Shown here piece after piece: positions 5,092 to 39,186 of a stretch of 39,186 bases of DNA (positions within the stretch are counted from its first letter, which is position 1; each line of letters starts with the position of its first letter). The notes under the pieces were generated by a model. It made no database searches, had not been told where the DNA came from, and worked only from the letters and a program-made list of their open reading frames with translations. Both the position numbers and the translations under genes were made by a program. Origin of the DNA: Candidatus Peregrinibacteria bacterium (GTDB lineage: Bacteria > Patescibacteriota > Gracilibacteria > CAIRYL01 > GCA-016699755); NCBI GenBank assembly GCA_024762935.1, contig JANTGK010000010.1:1-39186 (forward strand). The letters are read 5' to 3'.

Positions 5092-6522
5092 TTACTGTTC
5101 TTTCTTCATAAGCTTTTTTACCTCATTAAGTGCTTTTGGCGCTTTTTGATGTTCCGGATATTTTTCCACTATCTCTGAAAAAACTTTCTCCGCATCAGAA
5201 AATTTTTTTTGTTGGAGCAACAAAAGCCCCTGTTGATATTTTTTCTCAGCATTATGATTCCCAGAAAAATTTAAACATTTGGAGATATCTTTTTCACTTC
5301 GGAAAAAATAGCATATGTCGGAATTTTTTCGGGATTTTGCAAAATTAAAAATACACTCGGAATAATCTTCTTCACTTTCTTTTGTACTACAACCATACAT
5401 AGGTTCTCTCTCTAACGAATCCAATCTTTTAAGCATAGCGGAACTGTTTTTTTCTTCTGTGATATCTTCCGGCCTGATATTTTTCATAATATAAAGCATT
5501 CCTCCTTCTTTGATATAAACACTGTTTTTATCCCTGAAAAAGTAATATAAATTATGCAGACAGTCTAAACTTTTTACATCTATAACTGGTGCGGAATAAG
5601 AAGCTTCTTTTTTTCCACTAATAGAAATGGAGGCGGAAATATTATCGTGAATGATTAGTCCACAAAATTCGATATTGTCTTCCTTTATACCATCACGATA
5701 ATAAGAATTCTTATCTTTTGCTATTCCATGATCACTCATAGTATTCCCCACATATTCAAATGTCTTAGGGTCAGCATTTTTTACTTCTTTAATACCCCTA
5801 ACGTAAAGACGATGATTAAATTTAATCAGACTTGTATATACCCTGTCTTTATCTTTCCAATATCCGCCTCCTATAGAAATAAAAGTAGACGGGTCAGCAT
5901 TTTTTACTTTTTTTATAGATACGCTTAAAAAGCCAGAGTCTTCATGAAACATAAAAAATACATGATTCTTGTCTTTCCAATATCGATAGCCGTCTTCCGG
6001 TGTTATCTCTTCAAAAGTATTTGGGTCTGCGTCTTCGATGATTACGCCTTCCTGATACATATGATTTTTATCTTTAGCAATATCTCCGTATTCGTTAAAA
6101 ATACTTAAGGTTTTTATATCTATATTTTCTATTTTTTGAGCTTCAAAAAAATTTTTATCCGTTTTGTTATATATTTTTTTGAGATAGTATACTCCATTTT
6201 TATCCATTACATAATAACTGCAATTAATATCTTTAAAAGAAGAAATATCGATGCCAATAACTTTTTCTGTTCCAAGTAACAATTCTCCATCAATAACCTC
6301 ATATTTTCTTTCTGCACGAGAACAATCGTTTGAAGTTTGATTTGGTATTTGAGGTACGACACCTCTTTCTTTTTGCCCTACATTTTTTTCCTCTTCGGAA
6401 GACACCTTCTCTGATATATCCATCCTCGTTTTATAACCTTCATGTTTTTCACTATTGTCTACCAGAAGGCAACCCGAAAGCGTAAACAAAAGAATAACTC
6501 TGATGAAAAAAATTCGATTCAT
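5092..6522 (-). CDS. DKNYY-repeat lipoprotein with C-terminal TPR-like helices
   Basis: 476 residues from the ATG at 6522. That start is preferred over upstream in-frame codons because it begins a lipoprotein signal: MNRIFFIRVILLFTLSGC, with lipobox LSGC. The central part carries repeated DKN/DKD motifs (DKNGVYYLKK, DKNHMYQEG, DKNHVFF, DKDRVY, DKNSYY, DKNSVY), the hallmark of the DKNYY family. Many repeats are joined by phrases such as NADPSTF and NADPKTF. The last 55 residues (YQQGLLLLQQKKFSDAEKVF, then EKYPEH) look like one TPR unit as in CpoB/YbgF. Probably a membrane-tethered envelope protein. It starts 31 bases after the VirD4-like ATPase gene, so the two are likely cotranscribed. Molecular role unknown. 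Confidence 0.75.
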   Translation of the reverse strand: MNRIFFIRVILLFTLSGCLLVDNSEKHEGYKTRMDISEKVSSEEEKNVGQKERGVVPQIPNQTSNDCSRAERKYEVIDGELLLGTEKVIGIDISSFKDINCSYYVMDKNGVYYLKKIYNKTDKNFFEAQKIENIDIKTLSIFNEYGDIAKDKNHMYQEGVIIEDADPNTFEEITPEDGYRYWKDKNHVFFMFHEDSGFLSVSIKKVKNADPSTFISIGGGYWKDKDRVYTSLIKFNHRLYVRGIKEVKNADPKTFEYVGNTMSDHGIAKDKNSYYRDGIKEDNIEFCGLIIHDNISASISISGKKEASYSAPVIDVKSLDCLHNLYYFFRDKNSVYIKEGGMLYIMKNIRPEDITEEKNSSAMLKRLDSLEREPMYGCSTKESEEDYSECIFNFAKSRKNSDICYFFRSEKDISKCLNFSGNHNAEKKYQQGLLLLQQKKFSDAEKVFSEIVEKYPEHQKAPKALNEVKKLMKKEQ

Positions 6523-29154: not shown

Positions 29155-30594
29155 TCAACTCTCTGATCTCCGGTAGAGAAGGAATATGCCAGAAACACTC
29201 AAAAGAAAAAGGAGGATAAGAAATCCTATTATGCCTGTCTGAAACGGTATGCTTGCACCTGGAATATTTCCTAAAAATTGCACTACTACGAGACCCACAT
29301 GTAAAATATTCCATGAAACAAAAGCAAGAATATCTCCCATCAATGGAAAAAACACTCCCATTACGACAGATAAAAACGAAAAAAGCATTGCCATAGGAAT
29401 AAGTGGAACGATACAGAGATTTGCAAGAGGAGAGACAATTGATATTTGACCAAAGAGAAAGGTAATAAGAGGAAATACTCCAAGCTGTGCCCCAATGGTC
29501 GCTGTTAATATCTCTGTCCAATATCTGCTCGTAATAAAACGTCCAAAAAAAATTCCTAATGGTTCAGAAAAAAGAAGGAGTCCAAGGACACCTGCAATAG
29601 AGAGTTGAAATGAGGGGTCATATGCGAGAATAAGCGGCCGAAAACCAACCATCACCATGCTTGCCAAGAAAAGCAGACTAAACCCCTCTGCTTTTCTCCC
29701 AGAATGAACAATAAAAAGACCTATTGATCCCATGATTGCCGCGCGAATAATACTGGCACCACCACCAACAAACAAAACAAAAAGAGAAAGAAATACAATA
29801 GTGATGATAATTCGGATGATTTTTGGAAGCCAAATAGTCATAAAAAAAACGGCCAAAGCAATAATCGTAATATTGTATCCAGAAAGAGCCAAGAGATGAG
29901 AGAGTCCTGTTTTTTGAAATGATTGAGAAAGATCTGGAGAAAAGCCACTCCTGTCTCCGATAAGAATACCGGCTGCAAAAGCTGACTCTGGAGCTCTTAT
30001 TCGCCATCTCAGCTCTTGATCGAACCACACCCGAAGATGGTATAGAGGACCCAAAAAAATATGTCGAGACGTCTCTCCTGTTTTTTGAAATTTTGGATAG
30101 TTCATAACCGAGAAGATTCCGTCTTTAGAAAGATAATCTCTATACGAAAAATCATCTGACTGAAAAGGAATCTTTAGGGTTCCCGATAAAAGGACCTTAT
30201 CACCAAAAGATAAACCATTTTCATGAGGAATTCGCACCAGAAGAAGACCTTCTGCTGGAATCCACTGATGTTCTTTTTTATATTTTTCGACTGTTACAAT
30301 CCATTTTTCGTGATCATATCTTCTATCGGGAAATGCCGAAAGTTCGCCAATAATATCGACAGAAACACCTTTTTCTGTCGCAACCGTCCCGATATTTGAT
30401 CCCATTGGGAAACGAGGCACGATTTCTACCCGAAAAATTCCGAGCAGAAAAAAAACAACCCAAATAAGGCTGATAAAAAAAGATATTTTTTTATGAAAAC
30501 TGAACACAAGAATCATTCCCACTATGAGCACCGACGGAAAGACATAAGGGGCCAGTGTTCCAAAAAGAACACCTATGAGAAATGAAAGATACAC
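29155..30594 (-). CDS. comEC: ComEC/Rec2-type DNA-uptake channel without metallo-beta-lactamase domain
   Basis: 479 residues against about 700-800 for full-length ComEC. A membrane-rich N-terminal part is followed by an OB-like soluble segment (residues 75-170, GDKVLLSGTLKIPFQSDDF). The competence domain then shows the diagnostic GLSHLLALSGYNITI and further membrane helices (SFQLSIAGVLGLLLF, VSPLANLCIVPLIP). There is no C-terminal beta-lactamase-like nuclease domain; it stops after the last helix. ComEC moves single-stranded DNA across the membrane in natural transformation. Other competence genes (comEA, comF) are not in the window. It starts about 25 bases after the terminator of the SPFH gene. 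Confidence 0.92.
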   Translation of the reverse strand: MYLSFLIGVLFGTLAPYVFPSVLIVGMILVFSFHKKISFFISLIWVVFFLLGIFRVEIVPRFPMGSNIGTVATEKGVSVDIIGELSAFPDRRYDHEKWIVTVEKYKKEHQWIPAEGLLLVRIPHENGLSFGDKVLLSGTLKIPFQSDDFSYRDYLSKDGIFSVMNYPKFQKTGETSRHIFLGPLYHLRVWFDQELRWRIRAPESAFAAGILIGDRSGFSPDLSQSFQKTGLSHLLALSGYNITIIALAVFFMTIWLPKIIRIIITIVFLSLFVLFVGGGASIIRAAIMGSIGLFIVHSGRKAEGFSLLFLASMVMVGFRPLILAYDPSFQLSIAGVLGLLLFSEPLGIFFGRFITSRYWTEILTATIGAQLGVFPLITFLFGQISIVSPLANLCIVPLIPMAMLFSFLSVVMGVFFPLMGDILAFVSWNILHVGLVVVQFLGNIPGASIPFQTGIIGFLILLFLLSVSGIFLLYRRSES

Positions 30595-30690: not shown

Positions 30691-31473
30691 CTATTTGCTG
30701 GCGAATGCCTTCCCAACACTTTCAATGGCCCGAAGAGTTTCGATTGGAACCATCCAGATAGTCGTATTGCTTTGATCTGAACTGAGATCATTGATGGATT
30801 GAAGGGTTCGCAAATGAAGAGCTCCGTCTGCATCAGAGAGCATTTTTGCTGCCTTTGTGAGATTATTTGCTGCTACAACCTCACCCTCTGCCTTAATAAT
30901 GACAGCTCGTTTCTCTCGTTCAGCCTCAGCCTGTTTCGCCATCACACGTTTCATCTCATCATTCAATAGAATATCTTTTAGTTCGACTGCAGCAACATCG
31001 ATTCCCCATGGATCACTCGCACGGTCTATTTCTTCTTTGATTCTTTGCGAAATTTCATTCCTATTGGAAAGGAGTTCATCGAGATCTGTTTCTCCAACAA
31101 TGTTTCGCATTGTCGTCTGAGCAAGTTGTGAGATGGCATACCAGAAATTTTCGACTTTTAGGAATGCCTTTCCAGCATCTTGAACCTGGTAATATATGAC
31201 TGCATTAATCTGACAAGAAATATTATCTTTTGTAATAGCCTCTTGTTCGGGAACATCAACTGCTTTTAAACGGATATCTATTTTTTTCATTTGTTGAAAA
31301 ATAGGTACAACAATCCGCCATCCTGGATCTTTAATTCCCGAGTATTTCCCAAATGTCATCATAACACCACGTTCATATTGATTAACCTGGCGAACAAAAA
31401 GGACAACAAAAACAATAGAAATAACAAGAATAGGTACGAGAGCTTCCATATTTTTTAAAAAAATCGTTTCCAT
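30691..31473 (-). CDS. SPFH (slipin/stomatin-like) membrane protein
   Basis: 260 residues from the ATG at 31473 (METIFLKNMEALVP). An upstream in-frame start would add 16 residues, and AGGAG lies 11 bases before the chosen ATG. One membrane helix (about 8-28) precedes the SPFH core: VNQYERGVMMTFGKYSGIKDP to ISCQINAVIYYQV, then RNIVGETDLDELLSNRNEI. It then has a helical coiled tail with the slipin signature AEREKRAVIIKAEGE and AANNLTKAAKML, followed by GALHLRTLQSINDL. Slipins assemble into membrane microdomain scaffolds. The usual partner NfeD protease is not seen next to it, so its role here is only inferred. Confidence 0.92.
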   Translation of the reverse strand: METIFLKNMEALVPILVISIVFVVLFVRQVNQYERGVMMTFGKYSGIKDPGWRIVVPIFQQMKKIDIRLKAVDVPEQEAITKDNISCQINAVIYYQVQDAGKAFLKVENFWYAISQLAQTTMRNIVGETDLDELLSNRNEISQRIKEEIDRASDPWGIDVAAVELKDILLNDEMKRVMAKQAEAEREKRAVIIKAEGEVVAANNLTKAAKMLSDADGALHLRTLQSINDLSSDQSNTTIWMVPIETLRAIESVGKAFASK

Positions 31474-31574
31474 TTTTTCAAATTCTCCTGAAATACACAA
31501 GCTCACTCCCCCCTCAAACAAAAGGAAAATATTTGAATATTTCCCTCATTTCCGTCAATATTCTTAAACTTTTT

Positions 31575-32463: not shown

Positions 32464-35400
32464 TTATTCAGTATTTTTCTGAGAAGGCAAATCTGGTGGT
32501 ATAGGAAGTATAACCTCACCAGTAATATTTTTCTGTTTCTCTTGTACATTTTCATGTGCATGATCACTCTTAATCTCTTTCTCAGGGCTTATTGATGCAG
32601 GAGTGGTATTTGAAGAAATATGAACATTACCCGAGATACTCTCTTGCGGATTCATTTTTTTTTGTACAGAAAGTGTTGAACCTGATGGAGAATCTTTTTG
32701 TATCTGTATCTGTGGATTGTTTTTTGTTCTTGTTTCTCTTTTTTCTAGTGGAGAAGGAGAAATGTTACTCTTTTGAGTTCTATTTTTATGAGGATTTTGT
32801 GGCTGCTGAGAAGCAAGTCGTGGAGCCCCTGAAGGAATAAAGGTATCTTTCGGATTTTTTCGTGGTGCCTTTTGTGGTTTTCGGAACCGATCTTCTTTTG
32901 GCTTCTGAACAACTTTTTTTGTTTCACTTTGCGGTGGTAAAGAGGGGGAAGGTTTTTTTGGAGGAGTATTTCTCGGTGGAACTCCCTGTTTATTCTCTGA
33001 AGAGACAAAGGGGGGGGTACTCTTTTGCACTGAAGCATCTCTTCCTTCTTGTGCCACAGGAGATACAGCTTTTGGCACTGGAGGGGGTGTAGATTTTTGA
33101 ACCGGAGATGGTGCACTTTGCGGTGGTAAAGAGGGGGAAGGTTTTTGTTCAGGAGTAATACCCTGAGGAGTAACTGGTGGAGGAGTTTCTTTTATTCTGT
33201 CTGGAGTGGGATTCTCCTTAGGTGTTACCTCCTTAGCGTCCTGTACAGGACCTGGTTTAAGCCATTCGGGAAGATTTTCTTTTGAATCAAGAGATGGTGA
33301 TGGAATGACTTTATTTGATTCTGGAATTTCCTGACTCGCTTTTTCTCCCTCTTGTTTCTCAGGAGTTTTTAACCAATCTGGTATATTTTCTCTTTCGTTT
33401 AGAGAGGGGTTATCTGCAACTATTGATGGTTGCTTTTTCTCAATCAGTTTTTCAGGAGATGAAGAAATATCTGAATCTTCTTGTGCAATTTTTTGAAATA
33501 TATCTGAATCTGCTTTTTTTTCTTCAGCATCCTCCTGTTTTATTCCAGCAAAAGGAGATGACTCAATAGTAGGTTTCTCCTCTTTCTTTTCAGAATTACT
33601 CCCAATATTTCCTTCTCCAAACTCATCTTTCTCAATATTTTTAACTTTTCCCGTTTTTTCCATCCATTTCTCCATTTCTTCACGAACTATTTCACCAAAT
33701 CCAAGATCCGGAGATTCTACCTTTCTGAAAAAGAGAAGCAGGAGGACTCCTCCTAACAGAAACAGGGGAAGAAAAAAGAGAATTTTCCACCAAGAGAAAC
33801 TTTTTTCATCTGGTGCCAGTGGAAGATTTACGAGAGAGCCCTCTTCCTCAGAGGGAGATGCGGCGACATCTTCTTCTGCCACATGAACAGGAGTTGTAAA
33901 TTCTGATGTTTTTCCCAAAGCATCAGTAACCATTAGTAAAACTTCATAATCGCCTGCCTGAGAATATGTGTGATTGGGACTCACTTCTGAACTTGTGTTT
34001 CCATCACCAAAATCCCACTGATATGTTTCAACAAGACTTTCTGAGTCTGCTCCTTCTTGTGCTGAAAGTGGAAAAAAAGAAATACTATTCCCCTCCTTCT
34101 TGATTTCAAATTCCGCCAGTGAAGACCCTGCCTGTTCAGGTGCAACATCTTCTGCCAAAATAGTAACTGGTTCACTTTGTTTTGATGTAGTACCCATGGA
34201 ATCTGTTACTGTTAATAGAACTTCATATTCTCCGGCTTTAATATATTTATGTTCTGGGTTTTTTTCTGAGCTTGTGTTTCCATCACCAAAATCCCACTGA
34301 TAAAGAAGTGTTTGATCCTCCATTTTTTTATCAGGTGCAGAAAGGTTTACAAAATGAACATTATTGTCTTGTTTTTCTGTATTAAATGATGAAGTTGGCG
34401 GAGAAAAAAGAATCTCTTCTTTAATAACAGTAATAATGTGATCGACTGACTGTTCTATATCTCCAAGAATTGATGTTACCTCTACCACATATTGACCCGG
34501 TTCCTGGTATGTGTGTGTCATCTTTACTTCCGTGCCTGAGGCATCTTCTTGTCCATCACCATTAAAATCCCAAGAGTATTTTGTTCCTGGTGGTGTTCCA
34601 ATAATATGGAATTCTACAGGTTTCCCCACCTCTATTTCTGTTTGATCAACGAGAAGTTCAGGATTCATCTCTTGTTTTGGTTCTATCCATAACGGAGCAC
34701 CTCCTTCATCAAATATAATTTTTCTTTGAACAACACTTCCTTTTCCCTCTGCAGAAACAGCGATAAACTGAACAGTCTGCTCCACTCCATCAGACTTCAA
34801 AAAACGCACCTGAAGTGGCTCTCCTGTAACAAAAGAAGGATGATTTATATTATCAATATCTCGAGCCGGATCACCATCGCCATCTGAATCGACTAAGATA
34901 TTCTTGTCGAACCAATACTGAACAATATTCCCTTTGCTTCCTGCAAAGGAAAAAATGACATCTGCTTCATCATTGTAGAGAAAAATCTTTCCCTTCCTTT
35001 CCCCAGAAACTCCGGCTGGAGGAATCGATGCTATTTTTGCTGATAATGATCCTTCTTTTGGTGTTTCTAAAAACCGTATCACAACATCTGCTGTTGAAGA
35101 ATTCCCTTCCCTACTAAGTACTGTAAGGCGAGCAACAGGTGAGACTGAAGTATCAGCATATTCTAGAGGAAAAACAGAACCATCTTGAAAACTTTTATGA
35201 AACTTATTATCGACATCATTTGCAGGATTACCATCGCCATCTGAATCAACATGAATGTCTTGATCGATTCGATATTCCACGACCCCTCCCTGACTTGCTT
35301 CAGAATAAAATAAAATTTTTGGATTTTGAGGAGAGAGGATGACTTCACCAGACTCATCTCCAGCAGGAAGAGTATGCAGCACCGCTTTTAATGGTAGGTT

Positions 35401-35718
35401 TCTCTTTTTTACATCTCCCACTACTACATCAATATGGGTTCTCTCTGTTTCTCCCGAGCTATCTGTAATAGTTAAAAGGATTTGATATATTCCCGCATCT
35501 GAAAAAAGATATGAAAATTCTTCACCTTTTATTGTTTGTATCATTTCATCACCCTGAAACACTTCCCATACATATTTTTCTGGTGAAGGAAGGTCTGTTT
35601 CAGCATTCTGATGGAGTTCAGTTCCAGGATAAATAAGTACTTGTGCACTTGCAAAAGTGGCAACAGGAACTGTGAGTAAAAGAGTGAAAAAAGATAAGAA
35701 TGTAAGAATTTTCCTCAT
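32464..35718 (-). CDS. Large PKD-repeat membrane protein with proline-rich intracellular tail
   Basis: 1084 residues. A signal peptide (1-25, ending AFASA) leads into an outer part: one PKD-like module (22-110), two related beta modules each with a calcium-type loop (DSDGDGNPANDVDN and DSDGDGDPARDIDN), a PKD (378-418), and two closely alike PKDs (469-506, 564-601, YQWDFGDGNTSSE). A single membrane helix spans about 640-662. About 420 residues of low-complexity Pro/Lys/Glu-rich sequence follow, placed inside if topology holds. That tail repeats PSLxxxEN(I/L)P(D/E)WLK twice and KPSPSLPPQS twice. Inference: a surface or adhesion protein with a cytoplasmic docking tail. It starts 5 bases after the upstream PKD gene. 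Confidence 0.85.
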   Translation of the reverse strand: MRKILTFLSFFTLLLTVPVATFASAQVLIYPGTELHQNAETDLPSPEKYVWEVFQGDEMIQTIKGEEFSYLFSDAGIYQILLTITDSSGETERTHIDVVVGDVKKRNLPLKAVLHTLPAGDESGEVILSPQNPKILFYSEASQGGVVEYRIDQDIHVDSDGDGNPANDVDNKFHKSFQDGSVFPLEYADTSVSPVARLTVLSREGNSSTADVVIRFLETPKEGSLSAKIASIPPAGVSGERKGKIFLYNDEADVIFSFAGSKGNIVQYWFDKNILVDSDGDGDPARDIDNINHPSFVTGEPLQVRFLKSDGVEQTVQFIAVSAEGKGSVVQRKIIFDEGGAPLWIEPKQEMNPELLVDQTEIEVGKPVEFHIIGTPPGTKYSWDFNGDGQEDASGTEVKMTHTYQEPGQYVVEVTSILGDIEQSVDHIITVIKEEILFSPPTSSFNTEKQDNNVHFVNLSAPDKKMEDQTLLYQWDFGDGNTSSEKNPEHKYIKAGEYEVLLTVTDSMGTTSKQSEPVTILAEDVAPEQAGSSLAEFEIKKEGNSISFFPLSAQEGADSESLVETYQWDFGDGNTSSEVSPNHTYSQAGDYEVLLMVTDALGKTSEFTTPVHVAEEDVAASPSEEEGSLVNLPLAPDEKSFSWWKILFFLPLFLLGGVLLLLFFRKVESPDLGFGEIVREEMEKWMEKTGKVKNIEKDEFGEGNIGSNSEKKEEKPTIESSPFAGIKQEDAEEKKADSDIFQKIAQEDSDISSSPEKLIEKKQPSIVADNPSLNERENIPDWLKTPEKQEGEKASQEIPESNKVIPSPSLDSKENLPEWLKPGPVQDAKEVTPKENPTPDRIKETPPPVTPQGITPEQKPSPSLPPQSAPSPVQKSTPPPVPKAVSPVAQEGRDASVQKSTPPFVSSENKQGVPPRNTPPKKPSPSLPPQSETKKVVQKPKEDRFRKPQKAPRKNPKDTFIPSGAPRLASQQPQNPHKNRTQKSNISPSPLEKRETRTKNNPQIQIQKDSPSGSTLSVQKKMNPQESISGNVHISSNTTPASISPEKEIKSDHAHENVQEKQKNITGEVILPIPPDLPSQKNTE

Positions 35719-35723
35719 AAGTA

Positions 35724-38700
35724 TTAAAAATCAATAGTTTCAGAAATCAAACCAACCACTGTCTGTGCCGATACTTTTATTGTTACCGGATCTGAATTTT
35801 TTGTGTCGGGGAGATAGAATGAACTCGTTCTCCCTCTATCAAAAGCGATACGGTCTTCAGAAAATGAGCCCCCTCCACTAACAATTTCAAAAAGGGCATC
35901 ACCCCGAAGAAAACCTCTATCTGTATCAAATCCATAGGCAATTATCTCTATCGGACTTTCTGGTGAATCTACCGAAAAACGAGAAACAATTTCAAGTGTA
36001 GCCATGGGGGCATCTCCTTGTAATCGTATGGATCGACGTATGGTGTCATGATCAGAAAGACCCTCCTGGGAAGCTCCCACCTGCAGCTTTTGAACACGAA
36101 TTGATTCGATTCCAGCAGAATTCGTAACAGTAAGCTGAACAGAATATTCTCCTTTTTTCGGAAAAATGTAATCAACAACCTCTCCCTTTGCATCAACATC
36201 ATTTGAAGCATTACCATCGAGATCACTGTCTTGTTCCCCATTAACATCCCACACATAGGTGAGCTCATTGTCAGGAATTGTTTGATCATACTCAGAAATT
36301 CCAGCATCCAGATGAACAGATAGCCCCTTTGAAGAAAAAGAAAAATCTGCAAAAGGAAGTTCTTTTTCCTCGACAACATACACTGTGTGTGTTTTTTTAC
36401 TCGAATTTCCACGATGTTGGACAAGAAGCTCAACATTATACTCTCCCGTCTGATTATATGTGTGTGTAGCAGTTGGACCACTTTCTTGGTCATCTACAAC
36501 ACCATCACCATCAAAATCCCAACGAAATGCAGAGTTTGGAATAACATCCCCCAAGGGGTTTACCACCTCAGCTGTAAAAGTAATTTCATCACCAACAGAT
36601 ACAATAGTTCTCTTCATTGAAAAATCAACACTATGTGATGGATTTTCATTATTCTCTACTGTGACAACAGGGGGAGTTTTGAGGAGAGTATCTGAAAGTG
36701 TTTTTCCGCCATCATTATCAACAATCTCTGAGTGTATTGTAAAAATATTCTTCTTTCCTTTCGGTCCTCGTGGTGGAAGAGTGATGGTTGTGCTTGGTTC
36801 TACAGAGGAATGAAGATCAATCTTTTCAATCCCTCCTTCCATCTTAGCCCACCACCGATACTCTTGCAAAGTACCATCTGGATCATTTGCCCCCTTCATG
36901 GTTACAGAAACACTGCACGGAGAAAGACATGGTTGTTGTGGTGCTTGTACAAGAAGCTCGGTAAATGTTGGAGAGGTATTTTGTACAGAAACAAAAATTG
37001 GATCTGATTCTACCGATGTTCCTGTTGTTACATCTGTAACAGTAAGAAGAACTCTTTGGCACTCTCCCTCATCTGAAATCTGCATAAAACTCTTCTTTGT
37101 ATCAACTTCGTCAATAGATTCTCCACTACTAAAACTCCATTTATAACGAAGGTTTTCACTCTTTCCATCTTTATTTATAGAATCTTTTCCAGAAAAATCT
37201 AGAATATCATATCTATTAACCACAAAGGCAGATTCTCCTGACTGACATACATTTTGTGTCTTTTTTATTTGTACTCCATCTTTTGAAACAGATGCAACGG
37301 CAAGAGGATGTTCCCCATCTCCGACATACACATTTTTAGTAATGGTTATTTTTTCACCATCTCCATTAAATGCTGTAAGTGTTACTGAATGTTTCCCTGG
37401 TTGATCATATTTGTGTTTCTGGAATACTGATGCATCCTCTTCTTGCTGACCGTCCCCAAAATCCCACTGAAAACGTGTCCCTGTATTTGTTTGGATTCGA
37501 AAGTTCAATTCTTCTCCTTTTTGTATTACAAATGAATCAGCTAAAAAATCAGCAAAGAAAAGTGAAGTAATTTGGATTTCTTTTTGTTCTTGTTTTGATT
37601 GCGTATAATGATTAGAAACGATGAGTCGAGGAAAGAAGGTTTTCTTTTCTGTATACGTATGATGAACAATAGGGGTAGTAACATTACGAACATCAAATTC
37701 CCCATCTCCTTCAAAATCCCAACTATAAAAGAGCTCCTCTCCAAAAGGATCATAACTTTTTGTCGCATCAAAAATTACCTCTGCCGGTCGAGCAGGATTT
37801 TCTTGAGTATATGAGAAGTTAACCACTGGTGGTTTTGATGCAATCTCAAGTTGCTCTGTTGATGAAATTCCATTCCCTATATCAAGTTGTATTTCATACA
37901 TTCCCACCTCTTCAAATTTATAAGCAAATTGCGGTTTATCGGTAATCTCTTTTATGGGATTTCCTTGTGAATCAATAATCCTCCACTTGTACCGGCTCAC
38001 AGGAAGTCCATTTAATGATGAACGTTCCCCGTTAAAAACGACAATATCACCAACAAGGGGTTTTACTGTTTCGATATCTATAACCGCAATTGAATCTTCA
38101 ACATTAATTTTTAATTTTTTTTCAGATTTATTTCCAATATTATCTTTTACACGAAGGACAACTGAATATTGTCCTTTTTTTAAAAATGAATGTGTTACAG
38201 AATCAGACTCTGTATTTGTACTCTGTTTTTCACCATTAAAATCCCAAATGTATTCAATAATAGAAACACCTTCTGGAACAATAGTTTTTTGTGGATCAAA
38301 TCGAATACCTTTTTTGGCATCTTGAAGGGGGACTTTTAGTACACTTCCAACAGTTTTCCCCTCAACAAGAAAGTCTGCCGTTAGTTCTGGTGGGCCCACT
38401 ATTACATTTTCTGTTGTTATTCCTGGAAGAACACTTTTTTCCGCAAAAGAGAATACTTCCAATCGGATAACATAATTTCCCGGATGCTGAAATGTAACCA
38501 CTTTATGTGGACCAGTACCGAGATTTTTCTCTACACCATTATAATCGAGGTAGCTCCATTGATAATTTGCAGAAGGAATAGTTTTTTTTGTCGGATCAGA
38601 GGATTCAAGACCATTTAAGGTAACAGTAAGGGGAACACTACCATTATCAGGATTAAGTTTTATTCTTGCCTGCATTCGAGGAATTTTTTTTATCTTTTGA

Positions 38701-39186
38701 AGAATGACTCCAATTGATTTCTCTACTGACTTCCTTGCTGATTTAATTTCTCTTTCTTTTTGAGCATCAGATTTTTCATCATCAACTGTTTCTTGCTCCT
38801 CCATAAGGGAACGAAGATTCAATAAAGCATCTTGAAAAGCGCTATTGACCACATAGAGATCCCCTTCATAAAAATGATATCGAAAAGCTTCAACTGTCTG
38901 GGTTTGAGGAAGTTCATCAAAAAGAGCATTGTAGTCAGACTCAATATCATAAAGAGTATTGAGATCAAAATTATATGTATTTTTTATTTTCCCCTTCATC
39001 ACCTCTAGTCTTTTGTATATTTGCTCCTCTTGTTGACTAACAATACTTACAGATTTTGCATTTGCCTCTTGAGGATTTCCTCCTGCACGAATAAAAAAAT
39101 CCACTAACACCCAAGAAAAGAGAATAAGAAGGATTCCGAGAGCAACATAAATAACTCCTTTTTTTCCGGTCTCTAGTTGCTCTTCG
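35724..39186 (-). CDS. Very large PKD-repeat surface protein, N-terminus beyond the window
   Basis: The frame is open to base 39185, so the true start lies outside; the GTG at 39110 is only an internal candidate. The edge sequence encodes EEQLETGKKG, then a membrane helix (VIYVALGILLILFSWVLVDF), so the protein is anchored by its N-terminal end. Helical, charged sequence follows to about base 38650. After that come about nine PKD-like modules, centred near 38560, 38245, 37980, 37710, 37460, 37130, 36850, 36510 and 36235, several with WDF(D/N/E)G cores and one with a DSDLDG calcium-type loop. The last part, before the stop at 35724, is another beta module. The visible part is about 1154 residues. 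Same unit as the next PKD gene (5-base gap). Function inferred only: surface stalk or adhesin. Confidence 0.85.
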   Translation of the reverse strand, partial: EEQLETGKKGVIYVALGILLILFSWVLVDFFIRAGGNPQEANAKSVSIVSQQEEQIYKRLEVMKGKIKNTYNFDLNTLYDIESDYNALFDELPQTQTVEAFRYHFYEGDLYVVNSAFQDALLNLRSLMEEQETVDDEKSDAQKEREIKSARKSVEKSIGVILQKIKKIPRMQARIKLNPDNGSVPLTVTLNGLESSDPTKKTIPSANYQWSYLDYNGVEKNLGTGPHKVVTFQHPGNYVIRLEVFSFAEKSVLPGITTENVIVGPPELTADFLVEGKTVGSVLKVPLQDAKKGIRFDPQKTIVPEGVSIIEYIWDFNGEKQSTNTESDSVTHSFLKKGQYSVVLRVKDNIGNKSEKKLKINVEDSIAVIDIETVKPLVGDIVVFNGERSSLNGLPVSRYKWRIIDSQGNPIKEITDKPQFAYKFEEVGMYEIQLDIGNGISSTEQLEIASKPPVVNFSYTQENPARPAEVIFDATKSYDPFGEELFYSWDFEGDGEFDVRNVTTPIVHHTYTEKKTFFPRLIVSNHYTQSKQEQKEIQITSLFFADFLADSFVIQKGEELNFRIQTNTGTRFQWDFGDGQQEEDASVFQKHKYDQPGKHSVTLTAFNGDGEKITITKNVYVGDGEHPLAVASVSKDGVQIKKTQNVCQSGESAFVVNRYDILDFSGKDSINKDGKSENLRYKWSFSSGESIDEVDTKKSFMQISDEGECQRVLLTVTDVTTGTSVESDPIFVSVQNTSPTFTELLVQAPQQPCLSPCSVSVTMKGANDPDGTLQEYRWWAKMEGGIEKIDLHSSVEPSTTITLPPRGPKGKKNIFTIHSEIVDNDGGKTLSDTLLKTPPVVTVENNENPSHSVDFSMKRTIVSVGDEITFTAEVVNPLGDVIPNSAFRWDFDGDGVVDDQESGPTATHTYNQTGEYNVELLVQHRGNSSKKTHTVYVVEEKELPFADFSFSSKGLSVHLDAGISEYDQTIPDNELTYVWDVNGEQDSDLDGNASNDVDAKGEVVDYIFPKKGEYSVQLTVTNSAGIESIRVQKLQVGASQEGLSDHDTIRRSIRLQGDAPMATLEIVSRFSVDSPESPIEIIAYGFDTDRGFLRGDALFEIVSGGGSFSEDRIAFDRGRTSSFYLPDTKNSDPVTIKVSAQTVVGLISETIDF

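Follow-up and report, generated by a model that had tools for sequence, protein, structure and literature searches.

The window analysed here is a stretch of 39,186 nucleotides that makes up the whole of contig C10 of the source genome (GCA_024762935.1, Candidatus Peregrinibacteria bacterium). It contains two adjacent genes for large PKD proteins, called A and B below. Protein A (35724-39185, minus strand; 1153 residues) combines a T4SS-pilin hairpin with a PKD ectodomain and, as the window is an entire contig, is truncated at its 5′ end by the contig edge. Protein B (32464-35718, minus strand; 1084 residues) is made of a signal peptide, PKD modules, a membrane helix and a motif-bearing tail. 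Its start lies downstream of the A stop on the same strand, behind a spacer of only 5 nt (TAA-TACTT-ATG), as described in an earlier sequence-only reading. A promoter scan found fewer sites than in shuffled sequences. A ComEC-like competence protein (29155-30594) and a Band 7/SPFH protein (30691-31521) are also encoded near the pair; no evidence ties either gene to it.

In the window, A starts with the second half of a VirB2-like T4SS_pilin hairpin (39078-39185, minus strand), consisting of an EEQLETGKK loop and the second membrane helix. This part fits positions 42/43-71 only of the PF18895 model and is 54% identical over 39 amino acids to a standalone pilin on contig C68 of the source genome. 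The first hairpin helix and the signal peptide of A are situated past the end of C10. A pilin gene is located at the left end of contig C2; its stop overlaps with the start of an ORF, which runs off the contig. This ORF is interrupted within the first half of the hairpin (...FLWITS), and A of the window resumes with EEQLETGKK; the gap between C2 and C10 amounts to ~8 nt by homology, and the match is in frame. We infer from these sequence matches that the end of C2 would hold the missing start of A and, upstream of it, a separate pilin gene. Contig C34, likewise ending within a hairpin, was rejected as the start of A, because the two do not overlap and the model range of C34 conflicts with that of A.

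Complete A orthologues consist of a signal peptide, the hairpin, a variable linker and a PKD array. Against PF18895 (curated cut-off 26.6 bits), the orthologue in genome G002 scores 36.2 bits over model positions 4-71, and the one in G001 23.6 bits, slightly under the cut-off. Although A contains the PF18895 domain, its length of more than 1,150 residues and its PKD ectodomain do not allow it to be classified as a small stand-alone pilin. The hairpin is connected to the ectodomain by an alpha-helical linker (38688-39074, minus strand), supported by the alignment and by the AlphaFold2 model, which is helical at residues 38-166. In relatives this linker is hypervariable, with PDGT, GSNG/collagen-like, GTGG or Ser repeats. 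It is followed by an array of PKD/Ig-like beta-sandwich modules (35727-38675, minus strand; Pfam PKD_4, 3.6e-57), with a PKD score of 190.8 bits (PF18911/PF00801; curated cut-off 27; E about 4e-57). The AlphaFold2 model contains roughly ten such modules and a custom PKD profile detects eight. One relative of A (L142:1209-9209) has 2,666 residues and ~17 PKD modules, so that fibre length varies strongly.

Protein B begins with a signal peptide (35647-35718, minus strand; MRKILTFLSFFTLLLTVPVATFAS/AQ, ending at about ...ATFASA/Q, hydrophobic segment 3-25). The ectodomain (33889-35646, minus strand) is built of five modelled beta-sandwich modules, arranged like beads, and one PKD module recognized by sequence alone at residues 530-610; the custom profile finds four modules. 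Two of the modules carry acidic D-x-D-x-D-G motifs, DSDGDGNPANDVDN at 35206-35247 and DSDGDGDPARDIDN in the next one. With 177.2 bits (PF18911/PF00801; curated cut-off 27; E 6e-53), B is also well above the PKD threshold, so A and B share the module type attributed to both. A membrane helix at residues 641-668 (33715-33798, minus strand) is indicated by hydropathy and by a modelled helix at 643-668. Just behind it, a conserved juxtamembrane helix, FGEIVREEMEKWMEK (residues 674-688; 33655-33699, minus strand), is found by AlphaFold2 and has the counterparts LTFEELIDELK and GFQDFIIEK in relatives. A sortase or PEP-CTERM-like sorting signal was rejected, because ~416 residues continue beyond the membrane helix. 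A PHROGs search with B returned weak bead-like matches only. Sequence searches of the PDB gave only generic PKD domains of collagenases and similar proteins, and fold searches only unspecific strings of beta-sandwich beads, at low TM-scores. The two AlphaFold2 models had 4 and 6 sequences as input and reached a mean pLDDT of 74 (A) and 51 (B); for this reason they support the module layout and the disorder, and no fine detail.

The C-terminal tail of B (residues 691-1084; 32467-33648, minus strand) is unordered in the model, with a pLDDT below 50 throughout, rich in Pro, Lys, Ser and Glu, and free of Cys. Sequence, hydropathy and the model thus agree with the organization proposed earlier for B, a signal peptide, PKD modules, a late membrane helix and a disordered tail. 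The topology was assigned from hydropathy and the signal peptide. Taken with the layout of the hairpin, the signal peptides would place the PKD arrays of A and B outside the cell and the B tail inside. Since B has a signal peptide and a single helix, the tail is predicted to be internal and not exported, the placement that docking on the inside presupposes. In fused forms described below, the residues directly past the helix are mostly Lys/Asn/Arg-rich, in agreement with an internal tail. The anchoring of A and B at opposite ends, as first proposed, is retained; the simple N-terminal helix assigned to A turned out to be the second helix of the pilin hairpin.

The tail contains a repeated tryptophan motif with the consensus [LIV]P[DE]W[LM]K, present as IPDWLK (33367-33384, minus strand) and LPEWLK (33256-33273, minus strand). 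Of 23 B tails, 20 contain the pattern [LIVMF]P[DE]W[LMI], in 34 copies altogether, counts that are inflated by the relatedness of the tails; shuffled tails gave a mean of 0.03 copies and a maximum of 2 in 1,000. The motif persists while its copy number and position vary. At the DNA level, the pattern matches the source genome twice, both times in B. In 60 genomes, including the source genome, 79 matches were listed versus 9 for the reversed pattern, and about 45 of the 79 fall within A/B loci by manual count. Matches at G001:C44:236, G006:C59:4103 and G018:C58:9294 are on contigs with no identified A or B, and possibly represent further motif proteins or contig fragments.

A profile of B exceeded 260 bits in 25 of the 288 genomes of the class. 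Among the 24 B loci analysed, including the source locus, 23 have upstream sequence, and in all 23 A is located directly upstream of B on the same strand, at a spacing of -1 to 149 nt. The conserved neighbouring pairs that the sequence-only reading had suggested looking for among relatives are therefore found. Most complete loci show the order pilin-A-B; in locus L123 the upstream pilin was missed by the gene caller and found by eye.

Other families of the class, mostly with genetic code 25, which is also in use among relatives of known predators, encode A and B as a single chain of about 1,550-2,060 residues. In families f22 and f24, one protein of about 1,550-2,000 residues comprises the hairpin, the A core, a B-like acidic-motif module, the helix and the motif tail. 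L243 apart, these loci are read with code 25; the hairpin was not detected in L236, and the motif tail not in the contig-cut L243. Such single-chain forms with a tail carry 2-5 motif copies. The single chain of family f15 keeps the ectodomain, helix and tail, with no hairpin detected, and family f11 has the C-terminal helix and almost no tail. Two f6 proteins (L139, L140; ~2,050 residues) have the hairpin and the C-terminal helix; their tails of 86-97 residues each contain one motif.

The distribution of the C-terminal helix follows the presence of B. It is absent from every split A, because B supplies it, and present in most A proteins that have no B. Exceptions are L026, L027, L147 and the short L150; in the first three, with neither the helix nor B, the second anchor must be dispensable. 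In a tree of 52 A cores, obtained by a quick method and rooted at the midpoint, a single branch (SH-aLRT 96) separates the split forms from all others, as would be expected from one fission or fusion event, in either direction. The relatives with both halves fused argue that the A-B pairing is real, fusion and invariant adjacency being the usual comparative sign of a physical association.

A was detected in at least 195 of the 288 class genomes (E<=1e-60), approximately two thirds, code-25 lineages included; two candidates were scored per genome, so genome counts are lower bounds. In a sample of the phylum, all matches at E<=1e-30 belong to the Gracilibacteria class. Where records are named, they are Ca. 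Gracilibacteria, and also Ca. Peregrinibacteria in the case of A-type loci.

Several other families have, ahead of A, two proteins each containing three tandem pilin hairpins, and behind A a second PKD protein, which has three helices. Adjacent triple-hairpin T4SS_pilin proteins are also encoded in the source genome (L032:4238-5116 and 5113-6051, contig C9), and further such pairs are found in L026, L027, L028, L141, L143 and L146, in several families immediately ahead of A. VirB6 homologues are reported to be few or missing in Gracilibacteria (PMC12102498), and the triple-hairpin proteins may for that reason merit testing as a replacement platform. The source genome has 28 T4SS_pilin hairpin matches, several of which come from small pilin genes lined up in tandem; contigs C65, C34, C41 and C27 (L183, L182, L184 and L145) carry such matches. 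A further PKD protein of 727 residues, with three N-terminal helices and six PKD modules, is encoded on contig C1 (L002:631-2814); its relatives adjoin A in other families.

The invariant gene order, the fusions, the complementary anchors and the conserved motif in the tail point to the two-part surface complex with an inside-docking partner suggested earlier. The explanation we consider the likelier one is that A and B form a bipartite, pilin-anchored PKD surface stalk, with the B tail docking a cytosolic partner. A would be exported via its own signal peptide and held N-terminally by the VirB2-like (T4SS_pilin) hairpin, probably beside the pilin encoded just upstream or co-assembling with it. 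Its PKD modules would form an extended extracellular fibre. B, exported via its own signal peptide, would provide a second PKD fibre pairing with A outside the cell, as well as the C-terminal membrane helix missing from A. In the cytosol, its tail would use the copies of the [LIV]P[DE]W[LM]K motif to dock a putative partner, through which a contact made outside could be tethered to the cell interior or signalled into it. The pair probably has a role in gripping or sensing a host cell, as judged by analogy with the way of life of related bacteria (PMC8080830, PMC11452946) and with PKD surface proteins at large; the source organism and its relatives are presumed to be host-dependent.

The strongest competing explanation, which we nevertheless regard as unlikely, is that A is a modified pilin within a T4SS pilus, acting as a tip or side adhesin with a polymerising hairpin, and B an assembly or retention factor. 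The PF18895 hairpin of A and the pilin gene usually found directly upstream would fit, and Patescibacteria are thought to be able to make VirB2-like pili (PMC12102498; PMC12857230). However, the second, C-terminal helix of many A and fused proteins would tether such a subunit at both ends, and family f15 manages with no detectable hairpin. The source genome does have a VirB4-like ATPase gene, but on contig C12, away from A/B; the missing linkage of a VirB4-type ATPase also led to the rejection of the pair as a conjugative T4SS locus.

It is more improbable still that A and B are independent PKD surface proteins sharing only an operon and their expression. PKD modules are common on surface proteins, and in family f5 (L136, L137, L138) the gene behind a pilin encodes a short B-like protein, which has a motif tail, and no A was detected. 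B can accordingly exist without A, and these proteins are the main counter-evidence to a strict interdependence of the two. The invariant adjacency, the single-chain forms and the complementary C-terminal anchor nevertheless indicate one functional unit. The pair could also be a structural envelope scaffold that braces the membrane and the cell wall or S-layer and takes no direct part in contact with other cells. The anchoring at both ends and the presence in ~two thirds of the class would suit such a scaffold, and the length and disorder of the linker an element spanning the wall, but this reading is very improbable, as about a third of the class gave no match in the A search and the linker and module number vary strongly, which is more typical of surface-exposed proteins.

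The preferred bipartite stalk can be extended, tentatively and at less than even confidence, to a class-wide contact organelle of Gracilibacteria, in which pilin hairpins have become anchors of PKD fibres and the tryptophan-motif tail, bound to an adaptor, reports contact with host or prey. If true, this would be an undescribed organelle for attachment to host or prey cells across the class. Little is known of the means by which ultrasmall, host-dependent bacteria hold on to their hosts and sense them, and A/B represents a candidate of defined composition in ~two thirds of the sampled class genomes. With both fused and split forms at hand, the pairing can be tested, and the motif copies of the tail could serve as bait for the intracellular partner.

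In the limited open-licence literature, no account was found of a PKD ectodomain joined to a T4SS-pilin hairpin, of A-B forms that are split or fused, or of the tail motif. The closest family model is CPR_pilus_PamR (NF058578), in which positions 187-275, a PKD module followed by the helix region, align with B residues 570-653 (2.3e-14). B was rejected as a member, as its match covers 89 of 297 positions and reaches 53 bits, below the cut-off of 300 bits, which was passed in none of the 60 genomes searched; B is moreover over three times longer than PamR and has the motif tail. The best Foldseek matches of B are to the Aureispira grappling hook protein GhpA (PDB 9flw, 9flp, 9fly), part of a surface organelle and likewise a string of beta-sandwich beads; TM-scores of 0.07-0.14 and 13% identity limit the likeness to bead architecture, with no whole-protein homology. 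Vampirococcus lugosii, a related predatory CPR bacterium, has giant membrane proteins which, like A and B, carry PKD modules along with other interaction domains, and which are proposed to function in host attachment; unlike for A/B, the available parts of its description mention no pilin hairpin, two-gene pairing or tail motif (PMC8080830). A 2025 survey of T4SS in Patescibacteria found pilins and no PrgB-type adhesins, and its text does not mention PKD (PMC12102498). Pilins, PKD surface proteins and the T4SS of Patescibacteria are each known separately. The VirB2-like pilins of these bacteria (PF18895; PMC12102498) share their two-helix domain with A and, as the standalone pilin, precede it; the known PF18895 members are small single-hairpin proteins, whereas the hairpin of A is fused to a PKD ectodomain of ~1,000 residues.
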